From positions 1-22,157 of IMG/VR virus record IMGVR_UViG_3300042695_000931: a stretch of 22,157 nucleotides of DNA; one strand, 5' to 3'. This document shows positions 7,901 through 20,470 of the stretch, piece after piece. Below the pieces are notes generated by a model that saw nothing but the letters and a program-made list of their open reading frames with translations, did no database searches and was not told the DNA's origin. Each line of letters opens with the position of its first letter. Position 1 is the first letter of the stretch. The stretch comes from a virus. A program made the position numbers and the translations under genes.

Positions 7901-8461
7901 TACCTTAAAACGCAGGGCGCAGGCGCGGCGCCGACTTGGGCGACGGTTAGCGCGAGCGGCGGCGGCTCGACCAACCTCTGGCTCGCGGCCTCGCAATGGA
8001 TACCGCGCACGACGACCGGCGCCGGCATCGACTCGCGCGAGCTCACGACGAACAATTACGACGAGCTCCTCTTCGACGCTGGCACCGCGGAGTTCGCGCA
8101 GGCGCTTGCCGTGATGCCGAGCAACTACAACAACGGCACACTGACCGCGCGCTTTTATTGGACCGGCAGCGGAGCGCTTGACGCAACCGACGACGTCGTC
8201 TGGGGATTCCAAGGCGTGGCCGTCGCGAATGACGACGCGCTAGGCGTCTCGATGGGCACGGCAGTCACGGTCGCGGACACGGTGATCACCATCAACGATA
8301 TGATGATCTCCTCTGCGACGACGTTCGCGACGATGGGCGGAACTCCGGCGGCCAACAAGCCGCTGCTGCTTCAGGTCTACCGGGACGCGGCAAACGCGGG
8401 CGATACCTACGGGCACGACGCCCGCCTGCTTGGCGTGGAGATCAGCTACACCTCGGCCTGA
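4925..8461 (+). CDS. Large repeat-containing tail fibre / receptor-binding protein
   Basis: An 1178-residue protein starting 2 nt after the portal stop. Domains in order: Glu/Lys-rich coiled coil (about 10-150); carbohydrate-binding-module-like strand set with RGQWKEGMVAQRGDLFSWYG (about 167-225); a run of eight glycines; a fibre shaft with VRIGYVIKKAGVADGIIYVD (to about 530); ARVDHVHARPT; three repeats opening with GD(I/V)LYR (about residues 597, 745 and 972); and a C-terminal domain (about 1012-1178) with FDAGTAEFAQALAVMPSNY and HDARLLGVEISYTSA. That last domain is of a kind frequent at the ends of environmental phage fibres. The protein should be a trimeric virion fibre contacting the host surface. 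Placing a fibre directly behind the portal is unusual. Its TGA overlaps the next ATG by 1 nt. Confidence 0.88.
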   Translation: MHSVLDAIITSNEQLGQRAEEFAQLLVEHDKTLDELLERIGKTVPEIRKELESKLTEAVPGLVSDAYAKYNEDLEGRCRAALADSQTKLEAVRAEIVALAQTQFTEAEKQIGLTAEQIESRILGALTEAAKERITKLERGLVIEIQHAVNAALPKQELAAAPTLIDSYRGQWKEGMVAQRGDLFSWYGSTYLALEDTNDTPGRKNIATAGAKWAVIAARGAGGGGGGGGDSLPSQTGNAGKFLKTDGTSTLWEAIPGGGDMLGANNLTDVASITAAFANIKQPASTSASGVVTFATSGESAALKAVQANDARLSDSRTPTAHASTHQTGGSDPIDFPVDSVFGATNTITQVDYFALNTSSTASVTTAKAVWNATEGAIEVGLNSSVNALLGVDAHVQVYNQSGSPFTKGQVVRQDGSSGTRLKVVLALGTDDANSATTIGLVSQTIGNNSSGFIITNGLLRGINTNAFNEGDTLWLSATTPGGLVNTRPTQPNHSVRIGYVIKKAGVADGIIYVDILNGFELEELHDVLVTTVANRDFLSYDSSTTVWRNRQLFDSTAPAALGASATAGVSITAARVDHVHARPTLDQLDISGAAQGDILYRSATSWARLPAATAGYILQTNGAAANPSWAQNTGGSGAPTDAEYIVASANGSLSAERVISNSTSVTVNFATGGQVSLERAALTGDVTASQNSNATTIANDAVSNAKLANMVASTIKARVTASTGDPEDASLTQVLDLVGSTTYGDVLYRGSTSWQRLAPSVSGYVLATQGQGANPLWVAQTGGGGGAPTDAEYLVASANGTLSAERVIQNSTSITVNLATGGQFALERAALTGDVTASQNSNSTTIANGVVSTAKLGGDITTAGKALLDDADAAAQRTTLGLGTLATQNGTFSGTSSGTNTGDQTITLTSDVTGSGTGSFATTIANDAVTNAKLANMAASTIKARITGSTGDPEDATFTQVLDLVGSATYGDILYRDSSSWARLPAGTSGNYLKTQGAGAAPTWATVSASGGGSTNLWLAASQWIPRTTTGAGIDSRELTTNNYDELLFDAGTAEFAQALAVMPSNYNNGTLTARFYWTGSGALDATDDVVWGFQGVAVANDDALGVSMGTAVTVADTVITINDMMISSATTFATMGGTPAANKPLLLQVYRDAANAGDTYGHDARLLGVEISYTSA
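6713..7951 (+). repeat. Three diverged fibre repeats opening with GD(I/V)LYR
   Basis: Repeat openings are at nt 6713, 7157 and 7838. Each carries GD(I/V)LYR, a short Ser/Trp stretch, then a Gly-rich segment ending near a Trp (NPSWAQ, NPLWVAQ, APTWATV). Units 1 and 2 both continue with GAPTDAEY(I/L)VASANG, then LERAALTGDVTASQNSN and TTIAN. Unit 2 holds an extra segment with AAQRTTLGLGTLATQNGTF. The spacings are 444 and 681 nt, so the difference is 79 codons. Unit 3 is only partly represented. This is coding repetition from internal duplication, not a mobile element. Confidence 0.85.
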
Positions 8462-9102
8462 TGAGAGCGCGGATTCGCCACTTTTCTTACAAGGCGGCCG
8501 GGGCTAATTTAGCCCTAGATGCGCGTTACATAACAGGGGTTTCAAACGCTACCACATTCTCGCCTTGGTCGGACATTAGTGGCAACGCAAATAACGCGAG
8601 TCAGGCGACTACTGCTCGTCGCGGGACATATTATGTGCGCGATTCCAATTTCGGCGGGCAAGCCGCAGTAGATTTTGATCTTAACGGTCAAATGGCGTGG
8701 ACACCAGTTTCGTCTAAAAGCACATTTATTGTAATGTACAGAGCCTCGGCGCGTTATTCAGACTTCGGCGTTGCGCTCGACAACGGAGGTCTTGGGGCAG
8801 CCAGCGGCGGAGTGCATTCTAATGCGTCCTATGACTACACATACAACTGGACGCCAGCAATTCAGCGCGTCAATAGGGTCGCTGTTACAGATAATACTAG
8901 CAAATGGTGGACAAGTGGAGGGGTTGGTTATTTTGAGGATTCAAGCGGTTTTTCGTTAAAACAAATTGGTTTTGAGTCAGGTGGTCTTCACGGGCCGAAA
9001 GCATTCATTTCGCATATTTCCTTATTCACAACGGCACTCGGCTCTTCATTTGTTCGTCGAATCGAAGACCACTTGGGATTTTCATTTAAACTTAAGAACT
9101 AA
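8461..9102 (+). CDS. Probable LamG/concanavalin-like lectin protein
   Basis: A 213-residue protein starting with an ATG that shares 1 nt with the fibre's stop. The N-terminal half has LALDARYI, FSPWSDISGNANNASQAT and GGQAAVDFD, the signature pattern of concanavalin A-like (LamG) jelly-roll domains: a WxDxSGNxNxA strand, then G.AAVDFD. The C-terminal half carries further strands and ends in a helix (SFVRRIEDHLGFSFKLKN), also usual for such domains. This suggests glycan binding as part of the adhesion apparatus. Base composition differs from its neighbours: nt 8881-8940 are 25/60 G+C, against 45/60 at 7921-7980. Many codons end in A or T. This fits recent acquisition of a host-range module. The lectin call is by pattern only. 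Confidence 0.72.
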   Translation: MRARIRHFSYKAAGANLALDARYITGVSNATTFSPWSDISGNANNASQATTARRGTYYVRDSNFGGQAAVDFDLNGQMAWTPVSSKSTFIVMYRASARYSDFGVALDNGGLGAASGGVHSNASYDYTYNWTPAIQRVNRVAVTDNTSKWWTSGGVGYFEDSSGFSLKQIGFESGGLHGPKAFISHISLFTTALGSSFVRRIEDHLGFSFKLKN

Positions 9103-9501
9103 ATGCCCACCTATCTCGTCCTCGACTGCGAGCTCCGCTGCGAGACCGACCCGCAGACCATCGCCAATCTAGAGCGTAAAGGCTGGGTCGAGACACCGCC
9201 GCCGTCCTATGACCCCGCCACGCAGCAGCCTCCCGTCTGGGAGAACTGCGCGTGGGTGGTGAAGCCCATCCCGCCCCCGCAACCTTACCGCGTGAGCAAG
9301 GATACCATTGTTTCGCGAGTGCTCGCTGCCGGGAAGCTCAATGATCTCATCGCGTTAACCGACAGCCTGCCGACCGATCAAGCTTACCTTTGGGACAACT
9401 TTGCGTGGTTTTGGAACACTAATCCGACCATTGTGGGGATGTGTCAGCAGCTCGGCCTTGATCCGGCGGTTATCCTCGCGCCGGACCCCTACTTGACCTA
9501 A
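9103..9501 (+). CDS. Hypothetical protein following the fibre module
   Basis: A 132-residue protein whose ATG directly follows the preceding stop. GC-rich codon use returns here. The first half is Pro-rich and Trp-containing (GWVETPPPSYD, PPVWENCAWVVKPIPPP). The second half is probably helical (KDTIVSRVLAAGKLNDLIAL, then LWDNFAWFWNTNPTIVGMCQ and LGLDPAVILAPD). That half resembles, in style, small helical proteins often encoded next to phage fibres, which may act in assembly; this is an impression, not a family match. There is no signal peptide or membrane segment. Confidence 0.68.
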   Translation: MPTYLVLDCELRCETDPQTIANLERKGWVETPPPSYDPATQQPPVWENCAWVVKPIPPPQPYRVSKDTIVSRVLAAGKLNDLIALTDSLPTDQAYLWDNFAWFWNTNPTIVGMCQQLGLDPAVILAPDPYLT

Positions 9502-9502
9502 A

Positions 9503-9889
9503 ATGAAACGCCTCCTTGCCTCGCTCCTGCTAGTTGCTACCGCGTTCGCCCAGACTGGCGACACGCTGACCGTGAATGTCGGACAACAGATGGCGTTCTC
9601 GGCCACGGCTGAGGGCACGCCGCCGCTTACTTGGCAATGGCTGAAGAACGGGGTGGCGATTGCCGGCGCCACGAATGCCAGCTACACCATCGCCTCTGCC
9701 GCGACCACCGATTCCGGCACCTATCGGGCCCGCGCAACCAACTCGGCCGGCAACGCCGAATCAAACGCGCTGACGATCAACGTCGTCGTGCCAGTGATCG
9801 CGCCCAAGAACGTCGTGGCGAGTGTGGTTGTGACGACCCCCACGCAGGGGGGCAATTCGGGATCTCGCCCGCGTTCGCCCAAGGACTAA
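9503..9889 (+). CDS. Secreted or surface Ig-like domain protein
   Basis: A 128-residue protein. It begins with a clear signal peptide (MKRLLASLLLVATAFA, likely cut before QTG). Residues about 20-97 are one immunoglobulin-like domain: FSATAEGTPPLTWQWLKNG, the core Trp pattern, then ATTDSGTYRARATNSAGN with the DxGxY tyrosine corner. A Ser/Pro/Gly-rich tail follows. Ig-like domains are common on phage virions, where they may stick weakly to glycans, but usually as parts of structural proteins without a signal peptide. Here the signal would send it to the envelope or outside. This Ig subtype is widespread in secreted proteins of Verrucomicrobiota, which is a weak host hint. Gene transfer from the host is possible. 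Confidence 0.78.
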   Translation: MKRLLASLLLVATAFAQTGDTLTVNVGQQMAFSATAEGTPPLTWQWLKNGVAIAGATNASYTIASAATTDSGTYRARATNSAGNAESNALTINVVVPVIAPKNVVASVVVTTPTQGGNSGSRPRSPKD

Positions 9890-9890
9890 C

Positions 9891-10103
9891 GTGAAGACGA
9901 CCGACCAACTCCTAGCGCTCGCGCAAATGGCCGGCGACCTGATCGCGCGGCTGGACCGGATGGAGCAGCAGTTCGCGACGCAATCCATCTCGCTCAACGC
10001 CGCCGACAAGGCGCTTGCCGCAAGCCTTGACGGTTTACGCTCTCTTGACGCCGCCGCGCTAGAGGCTCGCATCGCCGCCATCGAAAAGAAACTCTCCCAA
10101 TGA
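9891..10103 (+). CDS. Small coiled-coil protein
   Basis: A 70-residue protein with a GTG start 1 nt after the preceding stop. It is almost entirely helical and heptad-like: TDQLLALAQMAGDLIARLDR, then MEQQFATQSISLNAADKALA and ALEARIAAIEKKLSQ. It resembles the N-terminal coiled coil of the following fibre (which has EKLEGEFSTHAKPLEAATNA and ALSGIKALQ). It could be a duplicated or split-off fibre N-terminus, or a trimerising adaptor. It ends at an ATGA overlap with the second fibre gene, which suggests coupled translation. No catalytic motif is visible. Confidence 0.7.
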   Translation: MKTTDQLLALAQMAGDLIARLDRMEQQFATQSISLNAADKALAASLDGLRSLDAAALEARIAAIEKKLSQ

Positions 10104-13035: not shown

Positions 13036-13185
13036 ATGGACGCAAACACCATCTCGCCCGAGCAAGCCCTCCAGAATCTCGCGCACGTCGCCGCCGCTTA
13101 CCGAGGCACCGCGCAGGAGCACGATCTCCTGCGCCAGTCGGTGCAAGTTTTGGCGGACGCGATTAAAGTGAAGCCTTTCGCGTGA
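13036..13185 (+). CDS. Very small hypothetical protein (49 aa)
   Basis: This reading frame runs from the ATG 15 nt after a TTTGACG element to a TGA that overlaps the next ATG (TGATG). The protein is helical and starts MDANTISPEQALQNLAHVAA; it goes on with HDLLRQSVQVLADAIKVK and contains no Cys or membrane segment. The ...LLRQSVQVLADAI... pattern suggests an amphipathic helix. I do not recognise a family. The tight coupling to the holin-like gene and the shared start motif support it being a real gene. It could be a small regulator of the lysis genes, but that is a guess. Confidence 0.6.
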   Translation: MDANTISPEQALQNLAHVAAAYRGTAQEHDLLRQSVQVLADAIKVKPFA

Positions 13186-13592
13186 TGCTCGACTTCCTCT
13201 CATCTGCTCTCGGTGGTGGCGCACTTGGCGTCATCCTCCGCATCGGAAACGGCTTCTTCGAGGAGTTCCGCGCCGGCCGAGAGCACGGGAGGAAGTTGGA
13301 AGAGGCGAAGGTGCTCGCGTCGATCCGCCAAGACGAGGCCGCGTGGAAAGCCTTCGAGGCGAGCCAGCAGGCGAGCGTGGTGCCGCCCAACGTCCACGCT
13401 TGGGTCGCGGACGTCGTGACGCTGTTCCGTCCGTTCCTGACGATATCGCTCGTGCTGATCGCGACCGTGATCTGGTTCTACGCAGCCGAGCCTTCCCGCG
13501 CGTCGATGACTGAACAGGTCACGTTCGCCGCGTTCAACTGCGTCGGCTGGTGGTTCGGTGATCGCGCCGCCTATCGCGCCAAGCTCAAATGA
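13185..13592 (+). CDS. Holin-like membrane protein
   Basis: A 135-residue protein starting at ATG 13185; a GTG at 13182 is an in-frame alternative. Hydrophobic segments lie at about 5-25 (LSSALGGGALGVILRIGNGF), 83-102 (PFLTISLVLIATVIWFYAAE) and, weaker, 112-125 (VTFAAFNCVGWWFG). A charged cytoplasmic-type loop between the first two has the arrangement GREHGRKLEEAKVLA. The final WWFGDRAAYRAK resembles the end of 3-TM holins of the GTA/phage type. Holins make the timed lesion in the inner membrane for lysis. No endolysin is recognised next to it, so the role is tentative. ATGA overlap joins it to the next small membrane gene. Confidence 0.62.
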   Translation: MLDFLSSALGGGALGVILRIGNGFFEEFRAGREHGRKLEEAKVLASIRQDEAAWKAFEASQQASVVPPNVHAWVADVVTLFRPFLTISLVLIATVIWFYAAEPSRASMTEQVTFAAFNCVGWWFGDRAAYRAKLK

Positions 13593-13789
13593 TCAAGCCA
13601 GCCGACTTCGTCGCCGCTATTACTCCCCCGGTCGCCACCGTGACCGCGGGCCAGATCAACTCGCTGCTCGGTATCGTTACCGGCATTGCCTCGCTGGCGT
13701 TCATCTTTTGGCGCTGGAATCGCGAGATAAAGAAGGCGCGCGCCGAAGACGCCGCAGCGGCCGACGCGCAGGAGGGGCGGCGTGACTGA
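13589..13789 (+). CDS. Small single-TM membrane protein
   Basis: A 66-residue protein in a 4-nt ATGA overlap with the holin-like gene. Residues about 23-41 (INSLLGIVTGIASLAFIFW) form one membrane span, followed by RWNREIKKARAEDAAAADAQ, a charged and probably helical tail. This fits a small lysis-associated membrane protein (antiholin, or i-spanin-like, with a helical soluble part), but spanins are normally longer and no o-spanin lipobox gene is seen nearby. It overlaps the metallophosphoesterase gene by 8 nt. Confidence 0.68.
   Translation: MIKPADFVAAITPPVATVTAGQINSLLGIVTGIASLAFIFWRWNREIKKARAEDAAAADAQEGRRD
13771..13775 (+). promoter_or_regulatory. Shine-Dalgarno site for the metallophosphoesterase gene
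   Basis: GGAGG lies 6 nt before GTG 13782, inside the previous gene. It is among the clearest canonical ribosome sites in the window and supports the GTG start despite the 8-nt overlap. Confidence 0.7.
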
Positions 13790-14732
13790 CTGGTCCGCAG
13801 TTCAGCGGGACGAGTCCCGCAAGCTCTACGAGGCCGAGATCGCGGGCCTGCGGAAAGAGCTCGATGTGGCCAGGGCTGCACTCGAGAACGCGACCAAGGC
13901 GCGCAAGGCCAAGCCGGCGCCGTCCGTCTCGCCGCGTAAGCGCACAGGATCCGACATCGTCCGCGTCGTCATCCCCGACACGCACGGCTCGCTCGTGGAT
14001 CCCAAGGCCATCGCCGCGATGCTGGCCGACATCCGCGCGCTCGACCCGCAGGAAATCATCCTGCTAGGCGATCACGTCGACTGCGGCGGATTCCTCGCGC
14101 AGCACCACGTGATGGGCTACGTCGCCGAGACGGATTACACTTACGAGGAGGATCTCGCCGCCTCCGCGCTTTTCCTCGACCAGCTGCGGGCCGCAGCGCC
14201 TCGCGCGAAGATCGAGTACCTTGAGGGCAACCACGAGCGGCGCGTCGAGACGTGGTGCGTGACGCAAGTGCTGCGCCACAAGAAGGACGCCGAGGGGCTT
14301 CGCCGGCTGCTCGCGCCCGAGTTCCGGCTGAAGCTCAAGGAGCGCGAGATCGCGTATTACCGGCAGGGCGAGTTCTACGACGGGCTTCCGGTCCCCGGCG
14401 TCATCAAGCGCGGGAAATGCTTCTTCTTTCACGGCGTCTCTACGGCAAAGAACGCGGTCGGCGCGACGGTCGACAAGATCGCCGGCAACTGCGTGTTCGG
14501 CCACACGCACCGCGCGCAATCGAACATCGTGCGGCGCATCGCGACCGGCATCGTCGGCGCGTGGAACCCTGGATGTCTCTGCCAGCTTCAGCCTCTATGG
14601 CAGCACACGGCTCCAACCGACTGGTCGCACGGCTACGCGGTGCAGCTAGTCGCGACTAGCGGCGCGTTCCTGCATCTCAATATTCCCATCATCGAGGGCG
14701 AGTCGCACTTCGCGGCGCTGCTAAAACTGTGA
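13782..14732 (+). CDS. Calcineurin-type metallophosphoesterase
   Basis: A 316-residue protein with GTG start. After an N-terminal helical stretch (about 5-45) and a basic linker come all motifs of the family: PDTHG (D66, H68), LLGDHVD (D97), GNHE (N150, H151), FFHGVS (H217) and GHTH (H241, H243). The two-metal active site is therefore complete and the enzyme is predicted active on a phosphoester. The substrate is unknown; some phage relatives act on nucleic-acid ends or cyclic nucleotides. A C-terminal segment with GAWNPGCLCQLQPLWQH is cysteine-containing. Position between holin-like genes and the capsid operon does not reveal the job. GTGA at its end starts the next gene. Confidence 0.88.
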   Translation: MTDWSAVQRDESRKLYEAEIAGLRKELDVARAALENATKARKAKPAPSVSPRKRTGSDIVRVVIPDTHGSLVDPKAIAAMLADIRALDPQEIILLGDHVDCGGFLAQHHVMGYVAETDYTYEEDLAASALFLDQLRAAAPRAKIEYLEGNHERRVETWCVTQVLRHKKDAEGLRRLLAPEFRLKLKEREIAYYRQGEFYDGLPVPGVIKRGKCFFFHGVSTAKNAVGATVDKIAGNCVFGHTHRAQSNIVRRIATGIVGAWNPGCLCQLQPLWQHTAPTDWSHGYAVQLVATSGAFLHLNIPIIEGESHFAALLKL

Positions 14733-17415: not shown

Positions 17416-19137
17416 ATGCGCGTCTCACTTTGCGTCATCTGCGGGAACGAGGCCGAGCACATCATCGCGATGCTTTCGAGCTTCGCGCCTGTGTTCGACG
17501 AGCTCTGCATCGTGCGGGCTATCGGAGCGAAGGAGGCAGACGCGACTCTGGAGATGGCTGCGGCTTGGTGCCGCGAGAACGGCAAGGACTTCCGCGGGGC
17601 TGAGTATCGGAACGGCTACGGCGCCGAGAAGTGGGACCACGTCGACTCCTTCGCGCGCGCCCGCAACGCGGCCTTCGCTAAGGCAACCGGCGACTGGATC
17701 GTCTGGTCCGACTGCGACGATCTGCTCGACGAGGCGCACGACTTCCGCGATTTCCTACGCACGGTCGCGCCTGAGGTGCTGATGGTGCGCTGTCCTTACG
17801 ATGTCCGCGGGACGAATAAGAAGCTGCACCGCGAGCGTGCGATCCGCCGTTCCGCCTTCGAGGCTGGTCGCGTCTGGCATCACGACGTCCACGAGAACCT
17901 CCTACTGCTTCCCGGCGACAAGCACGAGGACTGGCCGCGGCCGGTCTGGGTACACGCGCCGAAGTCGGTCAAGAAAGAGAACCGCCGGCGCAATCTCCGC
18001 ATCCTCGGTCAGTCGGTGAAAGAGACTCCGACGCAGTATTTCTACATCCACCAAGAGCACCTCTGCGCCGGAAATCGGCAGGCCGCGGAGCAGTTCGGGA
18101 AGATCGCTCTAAGCTTCCCGAATCTCGAGCAGTCCTTCCGCTACGAGGCGCTGCTGAACCTCGCCAAGCTCTGCGGCGATTCGCGCGAGGCGATGAGCTA
18201 CGCGCTGCAAGCGCACGCCGTCTTCCCGTGGTGCCGGGAGGCTTACGCCGCGATCATCCTCCTGCTCTTCGAGAAGAACGACGGCGCGCGTGCCCGCTGG
18301 TGGGCCGAGGAGATGCTGCGCCACCGCGAGCCGATCGGCGCCGATAAGCCGTGGACCTCCGAGGCGAAATACTACGGCTGGGCGGGCTACGATCTGGCAG
18401 CGCGAGCCTTCCGACTGGCTGGGATGGAAGCGCGGGCTGACGTGCTCCAGCAGCAGTTCCATCTCGGCAAGCATCCGCGGATCTCGCTCGTCCACGCGAC
18501 CCGCGGCCGCACCTCGAAGGCCGTTGCTTGCCGCGAGGCTTGGCTCGGGCTCGCGCAGGATCCGACGCGCATCGAGCACGTCTTCGCCGTGGACGCGGAC
18601 GACAAGGAGTCGGTGACGATGGGCAAGCAGTTCCTCAGCGTCGTCTCGGAGAAGCGCTCCTGCGTCGCAGCCTGGAACCTCGCAGCCAAGAAGGCGCGCG
18701 GCGATCTGATCGTGCAGCTGTCGGACGATTGGGTTCCGCCGATCGGCTGGGACGCCAAGCTGCTCTCGCTCGTCGAAGATCGCGACTTGCAAAAGGAGCC
18801 GCTCGTCATCGCGGTCCACGACGGCCACCGCACCGGCCCGCTCCTTTGTATGGCTATCCTTTCGCGCGCGCGCTTCGAGCAGCAGGGCGGCGAGCTCTTC
18901 TACGAGGGATACGAGTCGGTCTTCAGTGATAATGAGTTCTCGCACCGCGCCTGGCGTGACGGCGTCGTCATCGACGCGCGCCACCTCTACAAGTTCGAGC
19001 ATCAGCACCCATCCTTCAAAAAGGGGAACTGGGACGCGACCTACCAGCACAACAATACGAAGGAGCGTTACGACGCTGGCCTCGAGCTCTTCAAGCAGCG
19101 CAACCCTGACGCCGACTCCAAATGGACCACGCCGTGA
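17416..19137 (+). CDS. Two-domain GT-A (GT2-like) glycosyltransferase
   Basis: A 573-residue protein. N-terminal domain: VSLCVICGNEAEHIIAMLSS, then DFRGAEYRNGYG, FARARNAAFAKATGDWIVWS and DCDD (Asp99, Asp101, Asp102), a GT2 nucleotide-sugar fold with a DxD motif of the kind in SunS-like enzymes. A helical, TPR-like middle section lies around 240-320. C-terminal domain: RISLVHATRGRTSKAVACRE, VFAVDADD (Asp393, Asp395), WNLAAKKARGDLIVQLSDDW (Asp437/438 second acidic site) and FKKGNWDATYQHNNTKERYD. Two catalytic-looking domains in one chain suggest successive sugar addition. The acceptor is unknown; virion protein, DNA or host envelope are all possible. It leads a three-gene cassette. Confidence 0.87.
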   Translation: MRVSLCVICGNEAEHIIAMLSSFAPVFDELCIVRAIGAKEADATLEMAAAWCRENGKDFRGAEYRNGYGAEKWDHVDSFARARNAAFAKATGDWIVWSDCDDLLDEAHDFRDFLRTVAPEVLMVRCPYDVRGTNKKLHRERAIRRSAFEAGRVWHHDVHENLLLLPGDKHEDWPRPVWVHAPKSVKKENRRRNLRILGQSVKETPTQYFYIHQEHLCAGNRQAAEQFGKIALSFPNLEQSFRYEALLNLAKLCGDSREAMSYALQAHAVFPWCREAYAAIILLLFEKNDGARARWWAEEMLRHREPIGADKPWTSEAKYYGWAGYDLAARAFRLAGMEARADVLQQQFHLGKHPRISLVHATRGRTSKAVACREAWLGLAQDPTRIEHVFAVDADDKESVTMGKQFLSVVSEKRSCVAAWNLAAKKARGDLIVQLSDDWVPPIGWDAKLLSLVEDRDLQKEPLVIAVHDGHRTGPLLCMAILSRARFEQQGGELFYEGYESVFSDNEFSHRAWRDGVVIDARHLYKFEHQHPSFKKGNWDATYQHNNTKERYDAGLELFKQRNPDADSKWTTP

Positions 19138-19760
19138 GCAGTCAATTCACCTACGAGTATCGCATCCACAACTCGACGGATGCGTTGATGTCCCGCGACC
19201 GCACGATCCGCGCGCAGTACGATCACGCCTACGTCGCGCGGTACGAGAAGTACCCCGAGCGCGAGCTCTCCGAGATCCGCGCGGCGCTGTTCCGTCGCTT
19301 CTTTCCAGAGGCGTTTATCGTCTGCGACATCGGCTACGGAACCGGCGCGTTCCTGCGGGCGGTCAACGATCGCAGTCCTTGGGTCCATTGCTGGGGCTAC
19401 GACGTTTCCCCATATCCCGCGCCGTCGTTCGTGCGCGTGGATCCCGAGTGGCAGCGGACACGCTGGCCGGTGCTGACGTTCTTCGACTCGCTTGAGCACT
19501 TTGACCAGCTGCCGCGGTTCGAGGCCGATGGTGCGATCGTCTCGGTCCCGTGGTATCACCCAGCGCTCGGCGCGGAATGGTTCTACAACTGGAAGCACCG
19601 GCGCCCAGGCGAGCACCTCTGGCACTTCACGCCGGAAACGCTAGCAAACGCGATGGCGATCAATGGGCTTCGTCCGGTCTTCATCGGCTCGCCCGAGGAC
19701 GCGGTCCGCAAGAATGATGGTGACTGGCCGAACATTCTCACAATGGTCTTTAAGGCGTGA
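19134..19760 (+). CDS. SAM-dependent methyltransferase, class I
   Basis: A 208-residue protein counted from GTG 19134 (GTGA overlap with the previous stop, matching other junctions here); an ATG at 19122 gives four more residues. VCDIGYGTGAF (about 63-73) is motif I of class I methyltransferases, with the GxGxG-like glycine run. An acidic strand follows (CWGYDVSPYPAP), then LTFFDSLEHFDQLPRFEADG, and the ending HLWHFTPETLANAMAINGLR, a pattern of the Methyltransf_23 group used on small molecules or glycans. The N-terminal part (SQFTYEYRIHNSTDALMSRD) is specific to this protein. Lying between two glycosyltransferases, a role in methylating a sugar is the simplest guess. DNA methylation motifs (DPPY/NPPY) are absent. 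Confidence 0.83.
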   Translation: MSSQFTYEYRIHNSTDALMSRDRTIRAQYDHAYVARYEKYPERELSEIRAALFRRFFPEAFIVCDIGYGTGAFLRAVNDRSPWVHCWGYDVSPYPAPSFVRVDPEWQRTRWPVLTFFDSLEHFDQLPRFEADGAIVSVPWYHPALGAEWFYNWKHRRPGEHLWHFTPETLANAMAINGLRPVFIGSPEDAVRKNDGDWPNILTMVFKA

Positions 19761-20470
19761 GAATCTGCATCGTCTACCACCAGCGCCTCGGCGACATCAT
19801 CCGCATCCTTCCGATTGCGCGGCATCTGGCCGGCCAAGGTCATTCGGTCTACGTCGAGTGCTTCGCCCAGTATTGGGGGCTCTTTTCCTGCGTCAGCTAC
19901 GTGCGGCCGTCGGACCCCAAGCAGCGCGACAAGATGCGCTTCGGCCGCGTGCTCGAGCTAGAGATCTGGCCGCACCGCTACGACGAGTATCGCGCCAGCG
20001 GCAAGCCGTGGGGCGACTTCGTCTTCGGCCTTTTCCCCGAGTTCGCGCAGCTTAACCAGCGGCCCGAGTTCGATCTGATCGACGAGCAGCCGCCGCTGGA
20101 GGACTACGGCTTCAGCCGCGAGATCTGCCTACTGGCGCCGTTCGGTTACAGCCAAGGCAAGCAGTACCACGCCGGGGCGCTGATGGAAGCCTGCCGGCGG
20201 GTCGCCAAGCGGCCGATTGTCTTCCTCGCGGACGACGCGCAGGAGGCGAAGCTCCTGACTTGGCGCGTGCCGCAGTCGATGATCTTGCGGGCGAAGTCCC
20301 CGGCGCACTTGCCGCGGATCATCCGCGACGCCGAGGAGATGTTCACGATCAACTCCTCCCCGTGCATCATCGCCGGCGCCGTGCGGAAGGAGTTCTGGCA
20401 CGTCTCGTCGGGCGTCGCTCAAGATGACACATTCTCGCCAGCCTCGCGCGTTGTGACAGTTGGCGATTAA
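19757..20470 (+). CDS. GT-B glycosyltransferase, GT9 (heptosyltransferase)-like
   Basis: A 237-residue protein with GTG start in GTGA overlap. The N-terminus RICIVYHQRLGDIIRILPIA (GLGD-like loop) matches the first beta-alpha unit of GT9 ADP-heptose transferases. REICLLAPFGYSQGKQYHAG and the later AEEMFTINSSPCIIAGAVRK resemble the second Rossmann-like half with the typical 'TxxSxxxHxAGA' nucleotide-sugar site. The usual His is missing here: it reads NSSPCIIAGA. It is shorter than full GT9 enzymes (about 320-350), so the acceptor half may be reduced. It is the third gene of the cassette. Whether it is active is uncertain. No Shine-Dalgarno spacing is good. Confidence 0.72.
   Translation: MRICIVYHQRLGDIIRILPIARHLAGQGHSVYVECFAQYWGLFSCVSYVRPSDPKQRDKMRFGRVLELEIWPHRYDEYRASGKPWGDFVFGLFPEFAQLNQRPEFDLIDEQPPLEDYGFSREICLLAPFGYSQGKQYHAGALMEACRRVAKRPIVFLADDAQEAKLLTWRVPQSMILRAKSPAHLPRIIRDAEEMFTINSSPCIIAGAVRKEFWHVSSGVAQDDTFSPASRVVTVGD

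Follow-up and report, generated by a model that had tools for sequence, protein, structure and literature searches.

The window, a 22,157-nucleotide stretch of viral DNA (IMG/VR record IMGVR_UViG_3300042695_000931), encodes at positions 9503–9889 of the plus strand a 128-amino acid protein with a predicted signal peptide and a single Ig domain, termed SPIG here. SPIG is an optional one-gene cargo of tailed phages in several lineages. The gene itself, its fold (as a model), the selection acting on it, its optional presence, and its independence from the fibre tip are directly supported. Apparently, a phage Ig domain has been repurposed for export. The explanation that we tentatively prefer is that SPIG is a Sec-exported, non-virion accessory protein, possibly a tip-independent exclusion or anti-readsorption factor.

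The SPIG ORF starts with an ATG at 9503, one base past the stop of the preceding gene, and its own stop ends at 9889, just before the GTG of the next gene. Profiles, alignment, and a structure model divide the protein into a predicted signal peptide (residues 1–16, 9503–9550), an I-set-type Ig β-sandwich (residues ∼17–95, 9551–9787), and a conserved PxNVVxS segment (residues ∼96–112) with a short basic tail (residues 113–128, together 9788–9886). The Ig domain is matched by Pfam I-set (residues 15–89, E 4.7e-12) and by the Hoc-like PHROGs family phrog_4069 (residues 18–89, E 9.5e-15). Neither Pfam profiles nor the structure model revealed a second domain. The AlphaFold2 model (17 relatives) shows a confident Ig sandwich for residues 21–100 (block mean pLDDT 86–95, and 88–95 over most of the domain); the leader, the tail, and everything beyond residue 100 are of low confidence. 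In the PDB, the model is matched by animal Ig domains (Foldseek; best, the MALT1 Ig domain, 9.6e-7), and by sequence the PDB entries that match best are Ig repeats from phage tail proteins (9c2d, 1.5e-25). For the Ig part, dN/dS is 0.14 at a pS of 0.56 (pooled pairs, which are not independent), and this purifying selection indicates that SPIG is a real gene. Cysteine is absent from 17/17 aligned sequences; SPIG is therefore not a lipoprotein.

The leader comprises 16 residues (MKRLLASLLLVATAFA, followed by QTGD) in a signal-peptide layout. In a rule-based test (basic n-region, uncharged core, and small residues at −3/−1), SPIG was the sole passer among the 25 plus-strand genes of the window that were tested. 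By itself this rule is weak evidence, with a false-pass rate of 3–5%: it was passed by 995/20000 shuffles of the whole protein (5%) and by 517/20000 random leaders (2.6%). The alignment of window SPIG with 16 relatives (55–98% identical to it) argues more strongly for export than the rule alone, because an n/h/c leader passing the rule is found in 17/17 of these diverging, although not independent, sequences. The leader evolves with a dN/dS of 0.46 compared with 0.14 for the Ig domain at similar pS (again from pooled, non-independent pairs), and M1 and Q17 are invariant (17/17). Export is thus predicted with good confidence, and cleavage would take place between A16 and Q17. The initial annotation had described a signal peptide followed by one Ig domain and expected the protein to leave the infected cell. 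The ORF, the profiles, the leader rule, and the structure model confirm this architecture, and its export, although a prediction, is well supported.

The window is a partial contig, in which SPIG is preceded by terminase, portal, long fibre, tip, and 132-amino acid genes. It is followed by a 70-amino acid gene, a second fibre, HNH, holin-like membrane genes, metallophosphatase, a 326-amino acid gene at the usual protease position, cement, MCP, sugar genes, and connector genes. Judged from its position and swapping, the gene at 8461–9102 probably encodes the fibre tip, which is exchanged for unrelated tips in relatives. The 132-residue product of 9103–9501 may, by position, be a tip accessory protein or chaperone; the stop of this gene abuts or overlaps the SPIG start in many relatives. 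The holin-like genes lie 3.3 kb from SPIG. One of them (13182–13592) encodes a membrane protein that is holin-like by topology, its PHROGs match being of unknown function; the other (13589–13789) encodes a small membrane protein whose relative in L005 matches a PHROGs holin (E 0.0025). The tip gene, the 132-amino acid gene, and both holin-like genes are on the plus strand. Strict lipobox scans of the plus-strand ORFs of the window found no candidate. Between MCP and the head-closure gene (17416–20470) we observed a glycosyltransferase-2, a methyltransferase, and a further ORF. The metallophosphatase-type gene (13782–14732) recurs in phages with unrelated heads (L018:6449–7399 and L165:5224–6174) and is found directly behind SPIG in L018.

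Two scans of viral contigs yielded 23 and 25 SPIG loci, most of them on contigs common to both; L045, L051, and L053 were new in the second. Among 11 other SPIG-carrying records tested, two belong to the window lineage (MCP, 81–83%); the window terminase has no match in the same 11 records, which by itself shows little. A second group of carriers possesses a PHROGs phrog_2 terminase and a phrog_1328 major head protein (two records tested), and a third an SU10/P22-like portal. SPIG proteins 92% identical to that of the window occur in L012 and L015, the heads of which are unrelated to the window's. Among 50,697 phage records, the window MCP has no match, and phage-record matches of the window portal and fibre are all below 60% identity.

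SPIG is present in 10/26 related contigs that span the junction from the fibre to the next gene (window included) and absent from 16/26. This count is drawn from 39 loci hand-picked from relative tables; it leaves out L017, which starts inside SPIG, and 3300042881_001902, where SPIG is cut by the contig end, and omits the more distant relatives with other fibres (L154–L160). Five contigs (L070, L089, L090, L091, and L117) possess clean empty sites, at which the stop of the 132-amino acid gene overlaps or abuts the start of the 70-amino acid gene (9891–10103 in the window, plus strand), joining the two directly. Unrelated open frames occupy the junction in L094 (6534–7091) and L104 (after 5866), which suggests that it is a cargo hotspot.

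SPIG does not follow the fibre tip. The protein is 91–100% identical in eight contigs and 75–80% identical in a ninth, while the upstream tip is swapped for unrelated ones; between the window and L002, SPIG is 100% identical, whereas the tips are 5% alike. Over 36 pairs from these 9 contigs, the Spearman coefficient of SPIG identity is −0.11 with tip identity and −0.23 with identity of the tip-accessory gene; the pairs share contigs, so that a p-value would be no proper test, and L009, the tip of which is not delimited, was set aside. As a separate observation, tips are exchanged wholesale, LamG-like-looking versus glycine-rich, in otherwise near-identical phages (window 8461–9102, L002, L012, L019, L097, L103, and L105). 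Surface exclusion, one of the roles proposed in the initial annotation, is contradicted in its most specific form, that is, blocking of the receptor of the phage's own tip (the tips being putative receptor-binding parts), and we rejected it; in a broader form, surface exclusion or a decoy role is possible. Because SPIG stays constant while the tip is swapped, both receptor-matched exclusion and a dedicated virion part are disfavored, and the missing lipid anchor likewise makes a receptor-matched mechanism unlikely.

We propose that SPIG is an accessory ("moron") gene of the late operon, located where the fibre and lysis genes meet, and that it encodes a soluble, Sec-exported single-Ig protein. 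SPIG would be produced along with the other late proteins, exported, and cleaved after A16; its mature form would act on the infected cell, in the periplasm or at the surface, and not in the virion. Its target is probably a constant component of the host envelope, because the Ig fold resembles repeats in large proteins of the presumed host group and the sequence is independent of the tip. There, SPIG would most likely lower re-adsorption or superinfection by related phages independently of their tips; taken on its own, such an exclusion or anti-adsorption role is possible but rather doubtful. Tip independence also fits a role in lysis or a general envelope role. A more specific version, which we regard as unlikely, sees SPIG as a secreted mimic of the hosts' Ig-repeat surface proteins, shared by phages of several lineages as a one-gene cassette behind a swappable tip and blocking re-adsorption whatever the tip. 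If true, exclusion would be receptor-independent, a conserved host-surface site being occupied against progeny and rival phages alike. More generally, this Ig family looks built for export, is optional, does not depend on the tip, and is shared by phages whose heads are unrelated; it thus suggests that the Ig domain has a second use, on the envelope of the infected cell. SPIG also offers a small target for studying the control of re-adsorption or lysis in phages of poorly studied Verrucomicrobia-like hosts.

The main rival, although on balance improbable, is a lysis accessory: the exported Ig domain would bind the wall or envelope and aid the endolysin or spanin step. In several lineages, SPIG is followed by lysis-like genes, namely a lipobox ORF overlapping another frame and then a holin-like gene. 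In L005, L006, L012, L013, and L016, SPIG precedes a lipobox gene (LSGC) whose overlapping arrangement resembles that of spanins, with a holin-like gene behind it where tested. In L020 and L021, SPIG lies between a protein with a Cys/His/Glu motif and a small membrane-type protein, and in L022 it precedes a Cys/His/Glu-motif gene and a gene for a short proline-rich lipoprotein. The stand-alone SH3 protein of Drexlerviridae, for which a lysis-accessory role was proposed in T1-like phages, is likewise optional (188/522; available text of PMC13164509). However, the most constant neighbor of SPIG is not a lysis gene but the upstream fibre module. Where the upstream DNA is readable, SPIG in most loci stands directly behind a fibre, tip, or tip-accessory gene, the exceptions being L020 and L021 (one gene between) and L023 (immediate neighbor not assigned). 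Moreover, the holin-like genes of the window are distant from SPIG, no lysis gene was identified adjoining it in L045 and L015, and the Cys/His/Glu protein, whose structure model (pLDDT 52) is too poor for use, is not identified by profiles.

Two observations on these neighbors may be added. The Cys/His/Glu protein occurs next to or near SPIG at L020:487–966, L021:5519–5998, L022:6333–6734, and L018:7835–8239, has invariant DC, FA, H, and IEPQT motifs, appears papain/transglutaminase-like by eye, and in one member gives a weak match to Pfam Gln_amidase (0.012). An Rz/Rz1-like layout, with a lipobox ORF out of frame in or overlapping a small gene with a hydrophobic start, is found at L111:11538–11841 and at L005:2463–2769 and in relatives; the spanin label denotes lipobox and layout alone, and the two spanin-like proteins encoded by L111, which lacks SPIG, have no PHROGs match. 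SPIG itself was rejected as a spanin or lipoprotein, as it possesses neither a cysteine nor, in the model, a C-terminal helix; in relatives, the adjoining lipobox genes are separate.

Alternatively, SPIG could be a secreted adhesin or conversion factor that alters the host surface or biofilm by mimicking host Ig repeats, unrelated to superinfection. We consider this quite unlikely. The closest cellular relatives that we found are Ig repeats in very large proteins of Opitutia (Verrucomicrobia), with 50% identity to SPIG over ∼62 residues. One Opitutia MAG contains 92 matches, all in ORFs of 421–6810 amino acids. The initial annotation had suggested looking for the same protein in host genomes, and no stand-alone copy turned up in the Opitutia genomes searched, only Ig repeats in large ORFs. 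At E ≤ 1e-20, with at most 23 candidates scored per genome, 4/188 Opitutia genomes gave matches, all in ORFs of 814–2482 amino acids and none of them stand-alone; at E ≤ 1e-12, six of nine genomes did, all in ORFs of 491–4882 amino acids. A pattern scan of genome contigs returned 122 pattern matches, one of them a relative. Relatives of the window MCP occur in 9/286 Opitutia genomes, and the host is plausibly Verrucomicrobial, an assignment that is weak, as the counts come from Opitutia alone. Against an adhesin, a gene in the late operon would have only a short time to produce a phenotype before the cell lyses, and no integration gene is seen in the window, which is a partial contig. The available text of the paper on the Verrucomicrobia phage P8625 reports no signal peptides (PMC4642752).

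A virion component, that is, a Hoc-like or tail decoration protein whose leader is either removed or serves in assembly or membrane contact, is very unlikely. The best PHROGs matches of SPIG are indeed Hoc-like head decoration and tail proteins, Foldseek retrieved phage Hoc proteins from BFVD with the model, one of them as the top match, and the gene sits among structural genes. However, the leader is conserved throughout the alignment, a second domain is lacking, and six known phage Ig proteins sampled from five phages carry no such leader, in agreement with the earlier view that these proteins are normally leaderless. SPIG is also optional and recurs at 92% identity in L012 and L015, the heads of which are unrelated to the window's. 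In the relatives searched, we detected no structural protein carrying a fused Ig domain. Since it is optional, shared among unrelated heads, and preceded by a leader, SPIG is probably not part of the virion, and the suggestion of a virion protein that uses the periplasm is disfavored.

Finally, it is highly improbable that SPIG is not exported, being a frameshifted Ig extension of the upstream gene (a frequent arrangement of phage Ig domains according to the text available of PMC5009743) or starting downstream of the leader at the in-frame GTG (codon 24) or ATG (codon 30) of the window gene. The frame of SPIG relative to the gene before it is not fixed (the three relations occur 14, 5, and 3 times in the 22 of 25 loci that could be assigned), which marks SPIG as an independent gene and led us to reject a fusion. 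In 13/25 loci, the SPIG frame closes no more than 5 codons before the ATG (L013 and L014, which start at the contig end, are not among them). M30 is replaced by V in L022, L023, L051, and L053 and by I in L045, and the leader retains its signal-peptide character, which argues against the downstream start that the initial annotation had named as refuting export.

Phage Ig domains are regarded as modules for display on the virion. The Hoc-like and Ig decoration proteins (116 residues in Guernseyvirinae, PHROG 4069; T4 Hoc) share the I-set-like single Ig fold with SPIG and are up to ∼45% identical to it over this domain. Whereas the sampled Hoc-like proteins are leaderless and possess a different N-terminal part, SPIG has a leader passing the rule (17/17) and no additional capsid- or tail-binding part. 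The gut-phage adhesin paper describes Ig proteins displayed on the particle, and the words "signal peptide" and "secreted" are absent from its available text (PMC13370021). No exported phage Ig protein was described in the literature searched by title or abstract start.

Exclusion proteins of the Llp/Cor type are expected to match the receptor-binding protein, and to our knowledge those with a SPIG-like placement are lipoproteins. In the available texts, T5 Llp is an exported exclusion protein whose gene lies immediately downstream of that for the receptor-binding protein (PMC9586334), and the Cor protein found in T1-like phages is a small, exported superinfection-exclusion lipoprotein (PMC13164509). 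SPIG resembles them in being small and predicted to be exported, and in most readable loci also in its placement directly behind a fibre or tip module. In contrast to Llp and Cor, it has an Ig fold, no lipobox, and no covariation with the tip. Like the stand-alone SH3 protein of Drexlerviridae, SPIG consists of one small binding-type domain, is optional, and in several loci stands beside lysis genes; the domain of the former is SH3, not Ig, and "signal peptide" has 0 occurrences in the available text (PMC13164509). With the Opitutia Ig repeats, finally, SPIG shares the near absence of cysteines, but these repeats are embedded in ORFs that are hundreds to thousands of residues long, whereas SPIG is a single short gene.
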